This document shows positions 16,378 through 23,632 of a DNA stretch of 64,000 nucleotides, one piece after another. Under the pieces are notes generated by a model. It was not told the origin of the DNA. It saw only the letters and a list, made by a program, of their open reading frames with translations, and searched no databases. The translations under genes were made by a program, and so were the position numbers. How positions within the stretch are numbered: the stretch's first letter is position 1; every line of letters begins with the position of its first letter. The DNA comes from an uncultured Pelagibacteraceae bacterium (lineage in GTDB: Bacteria > Pseudomonadota > Alphaproteobacteria > Pelagibacterales > AG-422-B15): positions 252,036-316,035 of the forward strand of contig CACNSH010000001.1 of assembly GCA_902622985.1 (NCBI GenBank), in the 5' to 3' direction.

Positions 16378-16962
16378 TTATTCTTTTGTAGTTTCTGATT
16401 CTTCTGAAATTTCAGCATTATCTTCAGTAACTTGTTCTTGAGCAGACTCATCAACCTCAGATTCTGTTTTTTCCTCAGCTTGAGAAGCTTCAGCTGCAAC
16501 TTCAATACTCTCATCTTGAGCAGGATCATCAGAAGCAACAATTTCTTCTTCAACAACTTCTTCACTCTCATCAATATATAAACTAGCAAGATCTGGCTGC
16601 TTGTTTCGAATTCTCTCAACGATTCTTGCTTTCTTACCGGTTAAATCTCTAAGATAGTAAAGCTTAGCTCTTCTGACCTGTCCACTTCTTACAATAGAGA
16701 TGGAGTCAATGGACGGACTAAAGATTGGAAACACTCTTTCTACGCCCTCACCAAAAGAAATTTTTCTTACTGTAAATGAAGAACTTAGACCTCTATTTTT
16801 CTTTCTGATACAAACACCCTCGAATGCCTGTATTCTCTCACGTGTACCCTCACGTACCTTAACATTCACTCTTACTGTATCTCCTGGATGGAATTGCGGT
16901 ATTTTCTTACCTTTGACTAGTGTCTTTATCTGGTCTTTTTCGAATTGTTCTATGATGTTCAT
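16378..16962 (-). CDS. rplS: 50S ribosomal protein L19 with acidic C-terminal extension
   Basis: L19 sits at the 30S-50S interface. Residues 1 to about 125 are a standard L19 (start [13 protein letters not shown], core [39 protein letters not shown]). L19 is usually 115-130 residues; this one runs to 194. The extra roughly 68 residues are rich in Glu, Asp, Ser and Ala and look disordered. The same kind of acidic tail occurs on rpsP four genes upstream in the operon. Spacing to trmD is 27 bases, as in the common rpsP-rimM-trmD-rplS order. No frameshift explains the tail; it ends in a normal TAA. Confidence 0.95.
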
Positions 16963-16989: not shown

Positions 16990-17706
16990 TTATTTCTTCC
17001 TTGTCTTGCTTTTTTTGTAGTTTTTCCATAAATCTGGCCTAACTTTCTGTGTCAGTTTTTCAGATTGTTTTAAGCGCCACTCACTAATATTTCTGTGATT
17101 TCCAGAGAGCAATATGTCTGGAATTGTCAAATTTTTCCATTTTTTAGGCCTTGTATACTGGGGGTATTCAAGAAGGTCTTTTGAGAAGGTCTCTGAACTA
17201 GCAGATTTCATGTCACCAAGTGTTCCTGGCAACAATCTTACTATTGATTCCACTAAAACCTGGGAAGCTATTTCACCACCCGATAATATGTAGTCTCCAA
17301 TACTTATTTCCTCAATAGGATAAAAATCGAGTATGCGTTGATCAATGCCTTCATATCTACCACAGAGAATATTAATTCCTTTCATCTTTGAAAAATTAAT
17401 AACTTTACTTTGAGTTAAAGGAGTGCCGCGAGGACTTAAATATATCATTGGATAACTATCTCTAGATTTTATATTCTTGTAACAAGCATCAATAGACTTT
17501 CCGATTACATCTGCTTTTAAAATCATACCAGGACCACCACCAGCTGTAGTATCATCTACTTTTTTGTAATTTCCTTTTGAATATTTTCTTGGATCAATTG
17601 TTTTTAATGACCATATTTTTTTCTTTAATGCCTTACCCACGACTCCTGTATTTAAAAGTCCAGGAAAACTATTTGGGAAAAGTGTGATAATTTTTACTCG
17701 ATACAT
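16990..17706 (-). CDS. trmD: tRNA (guanine-N1)-methyltransferase
   Basis: TrmD methylates G37 of tRNAs next to the anticodon and prevents frameshifting. The 238-residue product has the SPOUT-fold signatures: FPNSFPGLL near the start, DDTTAGGGPGM (about 52-62), the CGRYEGIDQR motif (about 114-123), and the knot segment EEISIGDYILSGGE. Length is typical. It is 2 bases from rimM, in the rpsP-rimM-trmD-rplS block. Confidence 0.97.
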   Translation of the reverse strand: MYRVKIITLFPNSFPGLLNTGVVGKALKKKIWSLKTIDPRKYSKGNYKKVDDTTAGGGPGMILKADVIGKSIDACYKNIKSRDSYPMIYLSPRGTPLTQSKVINFSKMKGINILCGRYEGIDQRILDFYPIEEISIGDYILSGGEIASQVLVESIVRLLPGTLGDMKSASSETFSKDLLEYPQYTRPKKWKNLTIPDILLSGNHRNISEWRLKQSEKLTQKVRPDLWKNYKKSKTRKK

Positions 17707-17708
17707 TA

Positions 17709-18215
17709 CTAGCCTATATAGTCATTGATATTTTTTGTAATAATAATTTTTTTAATAAGATCAATTTTTTTTATTGTATTTTCACTTATTGGAATAAAGT
17801 AGTCTTTGACATTTTTTTTTCTTATTTCTAGTAAATCCGATGAACCGTAATTCTGAACAGATATTACTTTTCCAATATTTTTTCCATCATTTGTTTTTAC
17901 AATTAAATTAATTAATTGATGGTAATAGTATTGGTTTAATTTTTTTATAGCTGGTAAATACGATTGATCGATTTCTATTTTAAGCCCTACAATTTTTTCA
18001 GCCAACTCTCTTGTTTTAATTTGTTCACAACTCGCAATATAACCAGTTTTTAACTCTTTCAATTTTTTAAGAGTGATATTTGAGTATTTTTTCCCAAGTC
18101 TACAGGGGCCATATCTAAATACATCTTCTGGCGTTTCTGTATATGATGTAATCTTGAAATGACCCTTTAAACCGTGAACTGCTCTTACTTCTCCAATAAC
18201 TATCAATTGGGACAT
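17709..18215 (-). CDS. rimM: 16S rRNA processing protein RimM
   Basis: RimM binds S19 and aids maturation of the 30S head. The 168-residue protein begins LIVIGEVRAVHGLKGHFKI, the RimM N-domain signature (GxVxxxHGLKG), and contains the C-domain PRC-barrel region with YYHQLINLIV and a GKVISVQNYGSSDLLEI segment (about 116-132). It is highly AT-rich and lysine/isoleucine-rich but the fold signatures are clear. It lies between rpsP (11-base gap) and trmD (2-base gap). Confidence 0.94.
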   Translation of the reverse strand: MSQLIVIGEVRAVHGLKGHFKITSYTETPEDVFRYGPCRLGKKYSNITLKKLKELKTGYIASCEQIKTRELAEKIVGLKIEIDQSYLPAIKKLNQYYYHQLINLIVKTNDGKNIGKVISVQNYGSSDLLEIRKKNVKDYFIPISENTIKKIDLIKKIIITKNINDYIG

Positions 18216-18226
18216 AATTAATAAGC

Positions 18227-18715
18227 TTAGTCTTTTTTCTCCTCTTCTGCTGGAGCTTCCTCTGCTGGAGTCTCTTCTGCTGGGGCTTCATCAGTTTTTG
18301 CTTCTGCTGCTGGAGCTTCCTCTGCTGGAGCTTCCTCTGCTGGAGTGTCTTCTGCTGGAGCTTCAGGAGTAGGCTGATTCTTTGCTTCCTCAGCTGCGGC
18401 TAATCTTTCTTGTGCTTTCTTTTTTGGCTGAGCTTTTTTAGGATTGTTGCCTTGTGCTGGCATTGGTATTACGCCGGCTTCTCCCAAAAATCTTGCAACC
18501 TTGTCTGTTGGTTTTGCTCCTTTAGAAATCCACTCTTTTATTGACTCTAAGTTTAGTTGGATCCTATCCTTATTATCTTTTTGTAAAAGAGGATTGTACA
18601 ATCCTACCTTTTCAATAAATCTACCATCTCGCGGACTTCTTGAATCTGCAACTACAACTCTGTATACAGGCCTTTTTTTTGAACCTGCTCTCGATAGTCT
18701 TATTTTTAACGCCAT
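18227..18715 (-). CDS. rpsP: 30S ribosomal protein S16 with Ala/Pro/Glu-rich repeat tail
   Basis: S16 is a 30S assembly protein. The first 80-90 residues are canonical: [41 protein letters not shown] and the [14 protein letters not shown] block. S16 is often about 80-90 residues; this is 162. After a Lys-rich linker ([15 protein letters not shown]) comes a low-complexity tail built from PAEE-type units (about 110-158) ending EEKKD. The tail is encoded by short repeats at 18243-18365. Its start has a clear upstream purine run and it lies 26 bases after ffh. The tail is an observed fact; its role is unknown. Confidence 0.95.
18243..18365 (-). repeat. Degenerate 15-base tandem repeats coding the S16 tail
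   Basis: Within rpsP, plus-strand units close to TCTGCTGGAGCTTCC recur back to back, some as TCTGCTGGAGTCTCT variants, with one interruption around 18285-18300. On the coding strand they give Ala-Pro-Ala-Glu-Glu and Thr-Pro-Ala-Glu-Glu units. The DNA repetition means unit number could change by slippage, so tail length may differ between strains. Confidence 0.85.
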
Positions 18716-18741: not shown

Positions 18742-20124
18742 TTAAAATTTATTTTTAAAAAAATCACTCGGCATGCCACTTCCAAGTTGGCCTGCTAACA
18801 TATTTGGATCAATTGATCCTCCCCCTTTTCTAGATAACTTCTTCATCATGTCTGACATCTTTCTATGTTGTTTTAGAATTTTATTTATTTCGGATACTGA
18901 AGTCCCTGACCCTGCCGCTATTCTTTTTTTTCTTGATCCATTAATTATCTTTGGCTTGCTTCGCTCGTATTTTGTCATTGAGAGAATAATTGCTTCTTGT
19001 TGAGCGATTGAGTTGTCAGGATTAATATTTTGTGGGATCTTATCGCTCAGATTACTTAATCCAGGAATGAATTTCATCATACCCGAAATGCCACCCATTT
19101 TTTTCATCTGTCTGATTTGACTAAGTAAATCGTCGAGGTCAAATTCTCCTTTTTGTAATTTTTTGGCCATTTCTTCGGCATCTTCTTGATCAACAGTTTC
19201 AGCAGCTTTTTCAACTAAGGTTACAATATCTCCCATTCCAAGAATACGATTGGCAATTCGCTCTGGGTGAAATTTTTCAAGGTCATCGACTTGCTCTCCA
19301 ACTCCCATAAATTTAATTGGACAATCAGTAATATACTTCATGCTTAATGCGGCCCCACCTCGAGCATCGCCATCAATCCTAGTAAGAATAGTGCCTGTAA
19401 TATTGATCGCTTTTGCAAAATCGCTTGCAACATTCACTGCCTCCTGGCCAGTTAGGCTGTCTAAAACAAGTATCGTTTCAAGAGGGTTAATTTCTTTTTC
19501 CAGCAAACTCAATTCGCTCATTAGCCCTTCTTCAACATTCATTCTCCCCGCTGTATCATATAAAACACAATCAATTTCCTGTAATTCAGCAAATTGTTTT
19601 GCTCTTGATACAATATCAATAGGCATTTGATTTTCAAATTTGGGTAAAATTGTTACATCAATTAACTCAGAAAGTTTTTTTAGCTGATCAAAAGCAGCTG
19701 GTCTTGTGGTATCTAATGAAACAAATAAAATCTTCTTATCGTAATTACTTTTGAGATAATTACCAATTTTACCAACAGTCGTTGTCTTGCCAGAGCCTTG
19801 AAGTCCTGCAAATAAATAAGATGAAACTTGATTATCGTTTATTTGGAATTCGGGTGAAGCTGACCCTAAAATTTGAATTAATTGATCATTCACAATTTTT
19901 GTTATCATTTGTGCAGGCGTTATTGATCGAATGATTTCCTTTCCGATCGACTCTTTTTTTACATCCTCTATGAATTTTTTTGCAATTGGTAATGCAACAT
20001 CAGCTTCAAGAAGAGCTCTTCGAATATCTCTCATTGCACTATCGAGAGAGGTCTCATCAATAGAACCTGTCTTTTTTAAACTCTTAAATATTTCCTCAAA
20101 CCGATTACTAAGATTTTCAAACAA
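18742..20124 (-). CDS. ffh: Signal recognition particle protein Ffh
   Basis: Ffh (SRP54) binds signal peptides and 4.5S RNA and delivers ribosomes to FtsY at the membrane. The 460-residue protein has the N-domain (FENLSNRFEEIFKSLKK), the GTPase P-loop GLQGSGKTTT (107-116), the DTTRPAAFDQL block (138-148), DTAGR and TRIDGDARGG motifs, and a methionine-rich M domain (about 300-460). The start is TTG at 20124, supported by a GGAGAG Shine-Dalgarno eight bases upstream; no ATG suits. It heads the long operon to rpsP, rimM, trmD, rplS and the leu genes and has an unusual structured leader. FtsY is encoded in the facing operon at 22760-23632. Confidence 0.97.
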   Translation of the reverse strand: MFENLSNRFEEIFKSLKKTGSIDETSLDSAMRDIRRALLEADVALPIAKKFIEDVKKESIGKEIIRSITPAQMITKIVNDQLIQILGSASPEFQINDNQVSSYLFAGLQGSGKTTTVGKIGNYLKSNYDKKILFVSLDTTRPAAFDQLKKLSELIDVTILPKFENQMPIDIVSRAKQFAELQEIDCVLYDTAGRMNVEEGLMSELSLLEKEINPLETILVLDSLTGQEAVNVASDFAKAINITGTILTRIDGDARGGAALSMKYITDCPIKFMGVGEQVDDLEKFHPERIANRILGMGDIVTLVEKAAETVDQEDAEEMAKKLQKGEFDLDDLLSQIRQMKKMGGISGMMKFIPGLSNLSDKIPQNINPDNSIAQQEAIILSMTKYERSKPKIINGSRKKRIAAGSGTSVSEINKILKQHRKMSDMMKKLSRKGGGSIDPNMLAGQLGSGMPSDFFKNKF

Positions 20125-20229
20125 AATAAACTCTCCTTCAGCAGGTAGTGCACCAATGGGCGAAACTCGCTGACTGGTGTCGATACCTTTATTTTTGGCA
20201 CCGCAGAAATAATATTTCTGACGGAAAAC
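20125..20229 (-). ncRNA. Structured 5' leader of ffh
   Basis: The roughly 105-base untranslated leader between the predicted start site and ffh can fold. Hairpin 1 (20201-20224) pairs CCGC-AGAAAT with ATTTCTG-CGG around a 3-base loop with one bulge, right at the predicted 5' end. Hairpin 2 pairs 20151-20155 with 20175-20179 and encloses a GCGA/TCGC mini-hairpin (20160-20170). An alternative pairing joins 20138-20142 with 20169-20173, next to the Shine-Dalgarno site, and cannot coexist simply with hairpin 2 unless as a pseudoknot. It does not resemble 4.5S RNA (no GGAA-tetraloop asymmetric-loop hairpin). A regulatory leader is inference. Confidence 0.5.
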
Positions 20230-20235
20230 GTGAGT

Positions 20236-20264
20236 TTTTTATTACTTCAGTAAGTTAATGTCAA
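20236..20264 (-). promoter_or_regulatory. Predicted sigma-70 promoter for the ffh operon
   Basis: On the minus strand a perfect -35 box TTGACA (20264-20259) is followed after 17 bases by TAAAAA (20241-20236). Transcription would start near 20229, just before the first leader hairpin and about 105 bases before the ffh start. The spacing is ideal, the -10 box only fair. Confidence 0.55.
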
Positions 20265-21530: not shown

Positions 21531-22767
21531 AACTTACGGATGTAGACTGAATTTTTATGAGTCTGAAGTTATAAGAAAATACGCAAAAGATAACAATCTT
21601 CAGAACCATATTTTTATTAATAGTTGCGCTGTTACAAATAAAACTATCGCTGATCTGAAAAATGAAATTAGAAAAGTGAAAAAAGAAAATCAACAAAGTC
21701 AAGTCGTTCTTACTGGTTGTGCTGCACAGATACATAAAAAAGATTTTGAAGCAATGAGCGAAGTTGACTCCATCATTGGAAATAAAGAAAAATTAGAATC
21801 CTCAACGTATAAAACTATAAGAGAGAGTAATAAGCCCGTAAATTTAGTAGGAGATATATTTGAAAATGAACAGGCAATTTCACCGATTATAAGTAAAGTT
21901 AAAAACAGAATAAGAGGATTTGTACAAATACAAAATGGATGTGATCATAGGTGTACATTTTGTATTATTCCATATGGACGAGGAAATTCAAGAAGTGTGG
22001 ATCCAAAAAATATTATAAAACAAATAAAGTTACTTCTAGAGAAGAACTACAAGGAGATAGTGCTAACTGGCGTTGATCTCACAAGCTACGGTAGTGATTT
22101 TGAGAAAAAAATTTCATTGTCAAAGTTAGTAAAAACTATTCTCAATAGTTTGCCTCAACTTAACAGACTGAGACTGTCATCACTTGATATCGCAGAAATA
22201 GATGATGAATTAATAAATCTTTACGGGAGCGAGAAACGTTTACTTCCTCATATTCATTTATCTCTACAGGCTGGCGATAACATGATTTTAAAAAGAATGA
22301 AAAGAAGACATTCAAGAGAAGATGCAATCAATGCGATAGAGCGCATCAGAGCTGTCAGACCTGATATTGTATTTGGTGCAGATTTAATTGCTGGATTTCC
22401 AACAGAGACGGAGGAAATGTTTCTAAATTCAGTGCGGCTTATAGAAGAATGTAATATTACTTTTTTGCACGTGTTTCCATTTTCACCAAGAGATGGAACA
22501 CCAGCAGCTAGAATGCCTCAACTAGATCGAGAAATTATAAAAAAAAGAGCAAAAATACTCAGAAATATTGGTGAGCGAAAGATTACTGAACACTACGATA
22601 AGCTTAAAAATAAAGAGATTAACCTTATTGTTGAGAGTCAAAATCAAGGTAGGTCGGACACATTTGCAAAAGTCTTTCTCGATGATAGTTTTGAAGCGGG
22701 TAAAATAATAAAAATGCTTGTCACTGGAAAGCGTCAAGAAGGCTTAATTGGAAATATAATTGTTTAA
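21511..22767 (+). CDS. mtaB: tRNA (N6-threonylcarbamoyladenosine-C2)-methylthiotransferase
   Basis: MtaB adds a methylthio group to t6A37 of tRNAs that read ANN codons; t6A itself depends on TsaD, encoded at 59761. The 418-residue radical-SAM protein has the N-terminal cluster cysteines Cys11, Cys39 and Cys70, the SAM-cluster cysteines Cys144, Cys148 and Cys151 (GCDHRCTFC), and the IIPYGRGNSRS motif typical of MtaB rather than MiaB or RimO. A C-terminal TRAM-like segment is short. It overlaps the preceding gene by 20 bases and ftsY by 8 bases. Confidence 0.92.
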   Translation: MKDPEIKTYGCRLNFYESEVIRKYAKDNNLQNHIFINSCAVTNKTIADLKNEIRKVKKENQQSQVVLTGCAAQIHKKDFEAMSEVDSIIGNKEKLESSTYKTIRESNKPVNLVGDIFENEQAISPIISKVKNRIRGFVQIQNGCDHRCTFCIIPYGRGNSRSVDPKNIIKQIKLLLEKNYKEIVLTGVDLTSYGSDFEKKISLSKLVKTILNSLPQLNRLRLSSLDIAEIDDELINLYGSEKRLLPHIHLSLQAGDNMILKRMKRRHSREDAINAIERIRAVRPDIVFGADLIAGFPTETEEMFLNSVRLIEECNITFLHVFPFSPRDGTPAARMPQLDREIIKKRAKILRNIGERKITEHYDKLKNKEINLIVESQNQGRSDTFAKVFLDDSFEAGKIIKMLVTGKRQEGLIGNIIV

Positions 22768-23632
22768 GAGTTTAAAATCTGGCCTAGCAAAAGTATTTGC
22801 AAATCAAAAAATTGATCAAAATACAATACAGGATTTTGAGGATCTTCTCATTACTTCTGACGTTGATGTTGAAACATCAGAACTTATTACAGCAAAATTA
22901 GTAAATGAAAAATTTTCTAATGCTCCTTCGCTGGAAGAAATTCAATCATCTCTTAGTAAAATTATAAATGAAATTGTATCCACAAATACAAAGAAAATTG
23001 ACTATAAAAATAAAACAAAACCCTACGTCATATTAATGGTAGGAGTAAATGGTTCAGGTAAAACTACAACAATTGCAAAACTGGCAAATCAATTTCAAAA
23101 AGAGAGAAAAAATGTTCTGTTGGTTGCTGCTGATACCTTTAGAGCAGCGGCTGCAGAACAATTGAATGAATGGGCTGATAAAATAGGAACAGGCTTTATA
23201 AGAGATGCTGACAAATCTGATCCAGCAAGTGTAGTATTTAAGTCAATTAAATATGCAAATAAAAATAATATTGACGTAGTTATAATCGATACAGCCGGAA
23301 GACTTCAGAACAAAACTGATTTAATGGATCAATTAGGTAAAATTGACCGGGTGCTTAAAAAACACGATGAAACACTTCCTCATGACTCTATAATATCGAT
23401 TGATGCCACAACAGGGCAAAATGCCTTAAAACAAGTGGAAGAATTTAATAAATTTACGAAAATTACTGGCATTATTATGACGAAATTTGATTCTAATGCA
23501 GCAGGAGGAACACTAGTATCAATTTCCAACAAAACAAGAATACCAATTTTAGCAATTGGTAGTGGTGAGCAAATCAGTGATCTTATTGATTTTGATTCTG
23601 AACAATTTTCTAATAATTTTATTAAAAATTAA
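22760..23632 (+). CDS. ftsY: Signal recognition particle receptor FtsY
   Basis: FtsY is the membrane-associated GTPase receptor for the Ffh-4.5S RNA-ribosome complex. The 290-residue product starts at a TTG (22760) overlapping mtaB; no better start exists. It has the N-domain, P-loop GVNGSGKTTT (95-104), the ADTFRAAAAEQL block (about 124-135), DTAGR and TKFDSNAAGG. The acidic A domain found in E. coli FtsY is absent, as in many short alphaproteobacterial forms. Its 3' end overlaps the opposite-strand PagL-like gene by 4 bases, so transcripts converge. Confidence 0.96.
   Translation: MFKSLKSGLAKVFANQKIDQNTIQDFEDLLITSDVDVETSELITAKLVNEKFSNAPSLEEIQSSLSKIINEIVSTNTKKIDYKNKTKPYVILMVGVNGSGKTTTIAKLANQFQKERKNVLLVAADTFRAAAAEQLNEWADKIGTGFIRDADKSDPASVVFKSIKYANKNNIDVVIIDTAGRLQNKTDLMDQLGKIDRVLKKHDETLPHDSIISIDATTGQNALKQVEEFNKFTKITGIIMTKFDSNAAGGTLVSISNKTRIPILAIGSGEQISDLIDFDSEQFSNNFIKN

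Follow-up and report, generated by a model that had tools for sequence, protein, structure and literature searches.

The RF01793 leader RNA upstream of ffh in SAR11 bacteria: an extended structure and a possible role in the S16 operon

The leader RNA that precedes ffh in the window, by which we mean the whole 64-kb stretch of DNA that was analyzed, is a representative of the Rfam family RF01793, which Meyer et al. 2009 described as the "ffh motif", so that the element as such was already known. In SAR11 this leader consists of three consecutive hairpins, designated here A, B and C, followed by a conserved 3' tail box, and as such it is larger than the motif that was published. On the evidence, the likely function of the leader has moved from the SRP to the S16 operon.

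The RF01793 match was the sole Rfam match at the gathering threshold in the window, and it ends 18 nt before the start codon of ffh, which was identified by TIGR00959:

20143..20194, minus strand: match to Rfam RF01793 (ffh), scoring 44.6 bits (gathering threshold 35)

The hallmark of the family, an internal loop with two conserved cytosines, is present as C20158 and C20159 opposite C20172 and A20171. A preliminary description of this DNA had mentioned leader motifs upstream of ffh in marine alphaproteobacteria, and the Rfam search showed this leader to be that motif (PMC2704228). In the excerpts of that paper the motif is placed upstream of ffh and next to dapF in "Candidatus Pelagibacter ubique", is drawn as a single bulged hairpin with covariation, and is described as widespread in the Rhodobacterales, Sphingomonadales and Rhizobiales, with its function left unexplained. 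The leader described here shares with the motif, as excerpted, the hairpin with conserved cytosines, the site upstream of ffh, the divergent dapF and the alphaproteobacterial spread. What is added to that account is two more upstream hairpins and a downstream tail box, a C.C mismatch that is a fixed feature, and a lineage without SRP that has the motif before rpsP. A search of the open-access literature found neither a function for the ffh motif nor a link to rpsP, which is weak evidence of absence.

In the window dapF is divergent and lies upstream of the leader, and five genes follow downstream in the order ffh-rpsP-rimM-trmD-rplS:

18742..20124, minus strand: ffh, SRP protein, TTG start (TIGR00959, 553 bits; PF00448 and PF02978)
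18227..18715, minus strand: rpsP, ribosomal protein S16, second gene and proposed source of the ligand (PF00886, TIGR00002)
17709..18215, minus strand: rimM (PF01782)
16990..17706, minus strand: trmD (PF01746)
16378..16962, minus strand: rplS, ribosomal protein L19 (PF01245)
20133..20136, minus strand: GGAG, the ffh ribosome binding site, followed after 8 nt by the TTG start at 20124
20259..20264, minus strand: TTGACA, -35-like; given a 17-nt spacer, the predicted -10 would be TAAAAA (20236-20241)

The ribosome site does lie next to the GCTGA segment (20138-20142), as had been described. The ffh start codon (20122-20124) is TTG in the window and its close relatives and ATG in most other SAR11. 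The gene ftsY (22760-23632) lies a few genes from ffh, following mtaB and overlapping it. The preliminary description had also proposed a consensus-spaced promoter; a TTGACA element is present, and TTGACA recurs at approximately the same distance in leaders of the window's family, but at a spacing of 17 nt the -10 would be only TAAAAA, and the TTGACA element was not among the promoters listed by a consensus scan of the window region. Judged from these sequence elements, the transcript probably starts at about 20229-20230, just before hairpin A.

The elements of the leader, as delimited by covariation, RNAalifold and position frequencies, are as follows:

20201..20224, minus strand: hairpin A, CCG..CGG closing a CAGAAAU/AUUUCUG stem (covariation, RNAalifold)
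20182..20202, minus strand: hairpin B, GGUGCC (20197-20202) paired with GGUAUC (20182-20187) (covariation, RNAalifold)
20151..20179, minus strand: hairpin C, the core, with six outer pairs, U20173-A20157, the mismatch C20172.C20158 and A20171.C20159 (covariation)
20138..20150, minus strand: conserved 3' tail box, CACUACCUGCUGA (position frequencies; partly beyond the Rfam model)

The outer stem of hairpin C, CACCA (20175-20179) with TGGTG (20151-20155), encloses GCGA/TCGC, exactly as the preliminary description had read it, and the inner part continues with G-C, C-G, G-C and A-U pairs and a GUU loop. Using a pattern that let the variable U-A pair differ, 320 of 320 hairpins were extracted, 115 of them unique. 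Across the 12 stacked positions of the unique hairpins, leaving out the mismatch, 1287 of 1380 cells were standard pairs, and 228 cells were changed on both sides, versus 15 and 9 when the partner was slid by one. The non-standard cells fell mostly at one position, where A.C was commonest, and the C.C mismatch was kept in 112 of the 115, the remaining three having U.C. In a 70-sequence alignment spread over the class, both-sided changes occurred in 11 of 12 pairs, and none of 500 shuffles reached the observed values. Hairpin C is accordingly real by the covariation test.

The two upstream hairpins were assessed in 32 SAR11 leaders, in which the combined A-B-C structure had 94.6% of its cells paired and 10 pairs changed on both sides. 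The preliminary description had noted a strong hairpin at 20201-20224, and its sequence (CCG-U-CAGAAAU/AUUUCUG-CGG) was confirmed; covariation makes this hairpin A real, with 92.4% of cells paired and both-sided changes in 3 of 7 pairs, figures to be read with the knowledge that one row of alignment A3 (L187) is shifted in hairpin A and that the window's own hairpin A bulge misfits the common register; as both were retained, the paired count is lower than it would otherwise be. Hairpin B, the two outer G's of which overlap the 3' end of hairpin A, showed both-sided changes in 16/32 and 4/32 sequences at columns 40-55 and 41-54 of alignment A3; the RF01793 model takes in only its 3' side. This hairpin was absent from the earlier reading of the locus.

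Unaided, RNAalifold returned the same three hairpins from the SAR11 leaders, and it gave hairpins at all three positions for 76 leaders that a scan of named genomes had supplied (among the matches listed) and in seven leaders of an SRP-less order, described below. The 105-nt leader of the window (20125-20229) folded better than 200 of 200 shuffles (z -2.87), and with 30 nt of ffh added the z value was -2.10, with 6 of 200 shuffles folding as well. Hairpins A and B are not universal, as in two genomes of one family (L316 and L336) hairpin C follows so closely on a TTGACT box that the two would not both fit. Hairpin C was seen close behind a TTGAC-type box in L133, L316 and L336, where A and/or B are seemingly absent, which suggests that hairpin C is the core of the element.

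The tail box, which follows hairpin C and is approximately 13 nt long, reads YUGYUGG in SAR11 and is U-rich, ending in UUUGG, elsewhere. Two of its uridines are conserved: U at position 4 has a frequency of 0.96 in SAR11, 1.00 in the SRP-less order and 0.78 in other tails, and the corresponding values for U at position 11 are 0.87, 1.00 and 0.94. The spacing from hairpin to start codon is 21-42 nt in SAR11.

The tail lies beside the ribosome site. Two pairings that might expose or hide that site have to be weighed. The preliminary description had suggested a translational switch, in which UCAGC would be shared between two partners, one within hairpin C and the other the GCUGA by the ribosome site. 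The complementarity on which it was built, five bases between TCAGC (20169-20173) and GCTGA (20138-20142), is indeed present in the window, and a four-base match occurs in most SAR11 leaders (45/64 with A at the variable position). However, there were no both-sided changes in 350 cells from 70 leaders, 495 of 500 shuffles paired at least as many cells, and, outside SAR11, a leader's own tail did no better than a swapped one. Where the middle base of the 5' strand is changed to C, G or U, the tail has no matching change, and SAR11 copies with TCTGC or TTAGC have uncompensated tails such as CTGCTG. Of the 171 unique leaders outside SAR11 and the SRP-less order, 99 had a matching 4-mer, whereas shuffled tails gave 106 on average. 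As a conserved alternative pairing UCAGC/GCUGA was rejected on covariation, and we give a switch of this kind hardly any credence.

The second pairing would join the 5' strand of hairpin A (20218-20228) to the tail and SD (20131-20141), so that the SD is hidden when hairpin A is open. Ten of the 11 positions can pair in the window, and the pairing is strong in some SAR11 leaders and weak in others. For the 105-nt leader it gives the fold of lowest energy (-30.1 versus -29.6 kcal/mol for the centroid), and among 70 SAR11 pairs the leaders' own segments had a mean of -6.60 versus -6.03 when swapped, with none of 20 swaps as good, a result that shared ancestry alone could explain. With 30 more coding nucleotides, though, hairpin A forms instead; the pairing is weak (to -2.2) in many SAR11 leaders, and several CCACA leaders have an unmatched CTGCTG tail. 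We consider this long-range pairing very unlikely as an account of the leader: it is possible in the window's clade and inconsistent across SAR11, and it was set aside as a candidate.

The motif was found in 175 of 197 relatives. Twenty of the 22 motif-negative relatives were searched for Ffh, and in none of these was the 5' end of ffh assembled: in one, a contig begins with a C-terminal Ffh fragment (61% identity), five had only FtsY-like matches (32-36%) and 14 had nothing. Thus, wherever the start of ffh was assembled in a checked relative, the motif was there as well. In an even, class-wide sample, 112 of 387 genomes matched at E 0.001, and 86 reached the gathering cut-off. Caulobacter vibrioides, one of 14 control genomes, gave no match, whereas the motif occurs in the genus Rhodobacter (L079). 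Among 110 class-level loci, the gene downstream on the same strand was ffh in 103, another gene despite available sequence in five, and beyond the contig end in two. An exact-pattern scan of named genomes gave at least 120 stretches, including chance matches in unrelated phyla, and an Ffh start was present in 81 of 120 among the matches listed.

In 80 motif genomes, which were picked from 111 for better assembly and with the SRP-less order left out, rpsP was downstream on the same contig and strand at 1.4-5.1 kb in 79, and in the exception the motif is near a contig end. The gene rplS was elsewhere in two of the 80 (about 2 Mb away in G432 and on the opposite strand in G464). In two more it was on a different contig, and in one, the one-contig genome G054, the origin separates the two genes, rpsP starting the sequence at base 236 and rplS lying close to its opposite end.

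The five class-level loci without ffh all belong to one family (f41), in which genome size is 1.3-1.4 Mb, and begin with rpsP instead. A TIGR00959 search for ffh was negative in all five f41 genomes and positive in 14/14 control genomes, and PF00448, which finds Ffh, FtsY and FlhF, had matches in none of the five versus four of four other genomes. Across 18 genomes of the order (L352-L356 and L369-L382, of which 6 are at least 90% complete), no SRP54-type GTPase scored over the PF00448 cut-off, the only trace being one 41-residue sub-threshold match; all 14 control genomes were positive. SRP RNA was found in none of the 18, which is weaker evidence alone as the SRP RNA family misses 3 of 14 controls. 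We suspect that the order represents HIMB59-like bacteria. A search of the open-access literature under that guessed name found no report of SRP loss in the group, which is again weak evidence of absence.

The order has nevertheless kept the RF01793 motif in 14 of its 18 genomes, and in 14/14 of these rpsP follows directly, encoding an S16 that is 62-65% identical to that of the window. In L356 the order of genes is dapF, motif, rpsP, rimM, trmD, rplS, leuC, leuD, as in the window minus ffh (the names leuC and leuD are those we take the translations to indicate). In L352, mtaB is followed by dsbE, whereas in the window ftsY and other genes come there, so that ftsY is missing from the matching place. 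Within the order the hairpin is 100% paired with seven both-sided cells, and an A-U pair replaces an inner G-C pair; the both-sided changes among members indicate that it is selected there as an RNA. It could be argued that the leader merely stayed with its promoter, but one would hardly expect compensatory changes to be preserved in what is only the remnant of a promoter. The 14 motif genomes, being from one order, probably represent a single evolutionary event.

These observations bear directly on SRP autoregulation, in which Ffh or SRP would bind the leader and adjust ffh expression. At 103 of the 110 class-level loci ffh comes first, and ffh regulation is raised as a possibility in the excerpted text of Meyer et al. 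(PMC2704228). The same excerpts state, however, that the motif has no likeness to the 4.5S site, and the leader gave no match to the SRP RNA family (RF00169) at E values up to 10, on which mimicry of SRP RNA was rejected. Leader and SRP RNA do have in common a link to ffh and the sequence GUCAG (in the SRP RNA of this genome), but the leader is retained where SRP RNA was not found in the 18 genomes searched. Because an order in which neither SRP GTPases over cut-off nor SRP RNA were found has the motif before rpsP, SRP sensing is unlikely as a general role of the leader, and the coupling to SRP level that had been suggested for it is unlikely in the same sense; autoregulation by SRP we rate as improbable overall. 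The tie to the S16/L19 operon that had been suggested alongside it looks right.

The reading that we put forward, and regard as an even call, is that of an operon leader starting before hairpin A, with a core of hairpin C and tail and feedback by S16 first or L19 second; the start site, the regulation itself, the ligand and the translational step in it are predictions. The element would be the 5' leader of the ffh-rpsP-rimM-trmD-rplS operon, and its recognition core would be hairpin C with the C.C mismatch together with the tail box beside the ribosome site. An operon protein that is free of rRNA, S16 first and L19 second, would bind hairpin C and the tail, and the bound protein would block ribosome access at the ffh site in SAR11 and at the rpsP site in the SRP-less order. 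A ribosomal protein leader should be a structured RNA conserved ahead of genes for ribosomal proteins, and the motif was found both directly before rpsP (14/14) and with rpsP downstream (79/80). The likeliest ligand would be a ribosomal protein, with S16 the first candidate, favored by the placement of rplS elsewhere in G432 and G464. L19 as the sole ligand is disfavored on that ground. As a counterpoint to the operon leader reading, the first gene is still ffh in most loci, so that an added role for ffh is possible, and in bacteria other than SAR11 as many as 284 nt separate the motif from ffh, a distance at which simple occlusion would not work. Somewhat more tentatively, and a little short of even, we suggest that RF01793 is misnamed, and that it may be an autogenous leader of S16-RimM-TrmD-L19 with S16 as its ligand across much of the Alphaproteobacteria, kept before rpsP by an order that would have lost Ffh, FtsY and SRP RNA. 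The excerpts of PMC7247131 propose an S16 leader for Flavobacteria, which is similar in being a structured rpsP leader with S16 as the proposed ligand; it belongs to another phylum, and the two are likened by description rather than by structure.

The tails outside SAR11 would fit a different mechanism, an attenuator in which hairpin C and a U-rich tail end transcription early unless this is prevented, also yielding a short leader RNA. By a loose rule, a U tract was present in 69 of 171 tails outside SAR11 and the SRP-less order, versus a mean of 8.1 for random upstream windows, and intrinsic-terminator-like U-rich tails were seen after hairpin C in GC-rich non-SAR11 genomes such as L291, L311, L313 and L317. 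A sequence-weighted model of hairpin C and tail (R1) was also run over 5.6 kb around E. coli rrnB, where the two best matches, the best at E 0.2, fell just after the 5S gene, a region that we take to be the T1 and T2 terminators. Some ribosomal protein leaders resemble the rRNA site of their protein, but R1 had no match below E 1 in 16S or 23S of E. coli, the one species compared, a negative that speaks against the operon leader reading. Among metatranscriptome small RNAs, moreover, the excerpts of PMC2704228 note a transcript of the motif. On the other side, the same loose rule found a U tract in only 4 of 69 SAR11 tails, there was no terminator-like site in the window region, the stem is weakened by the C.C mismatch, and the tail consensus is more than U richness. 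Given the U-rich tails outside SAR11, attenuation has to be taken seriously there, whether as a rival mechanism or as a companion one; as the explanation of the element as a whole it seems to us rather unlikely.

A stand-alone small RNA or mRNA stability element with no feedback role would fit those small RNA reads as well. RF01793 has the Rfam type "Gene; sRNA", and the excerpts of PMC5596092 list an RF01793 locus, with transcript coordinates, among the sRNAs of Mesorhizobium huakuii. A free-standing RNA is difficult to reconcile with the finding that 108 of 110 loci are followed, on the same strand, by ffh or rpsP, the other two being at contig ends, and we judge it highly improbable.

SRP is usually treated as universal, and its loss in the SRP-less order is itself surprising. 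That order constitutes a natural experiment that separates an SRP sensor from a ribosomal operon leader. According to the excerpts of a 2024 review (PMC10931766), information is lacking on how E. coli regulates its trmD operon, a rare case among such ribosomal operons. If the leader answers to S16, it would provide the trmD operon with its regulation in a large bacterial group, some members of which are abundant in the ocean, and an orphan RNA family would gain a function after about 15 years.
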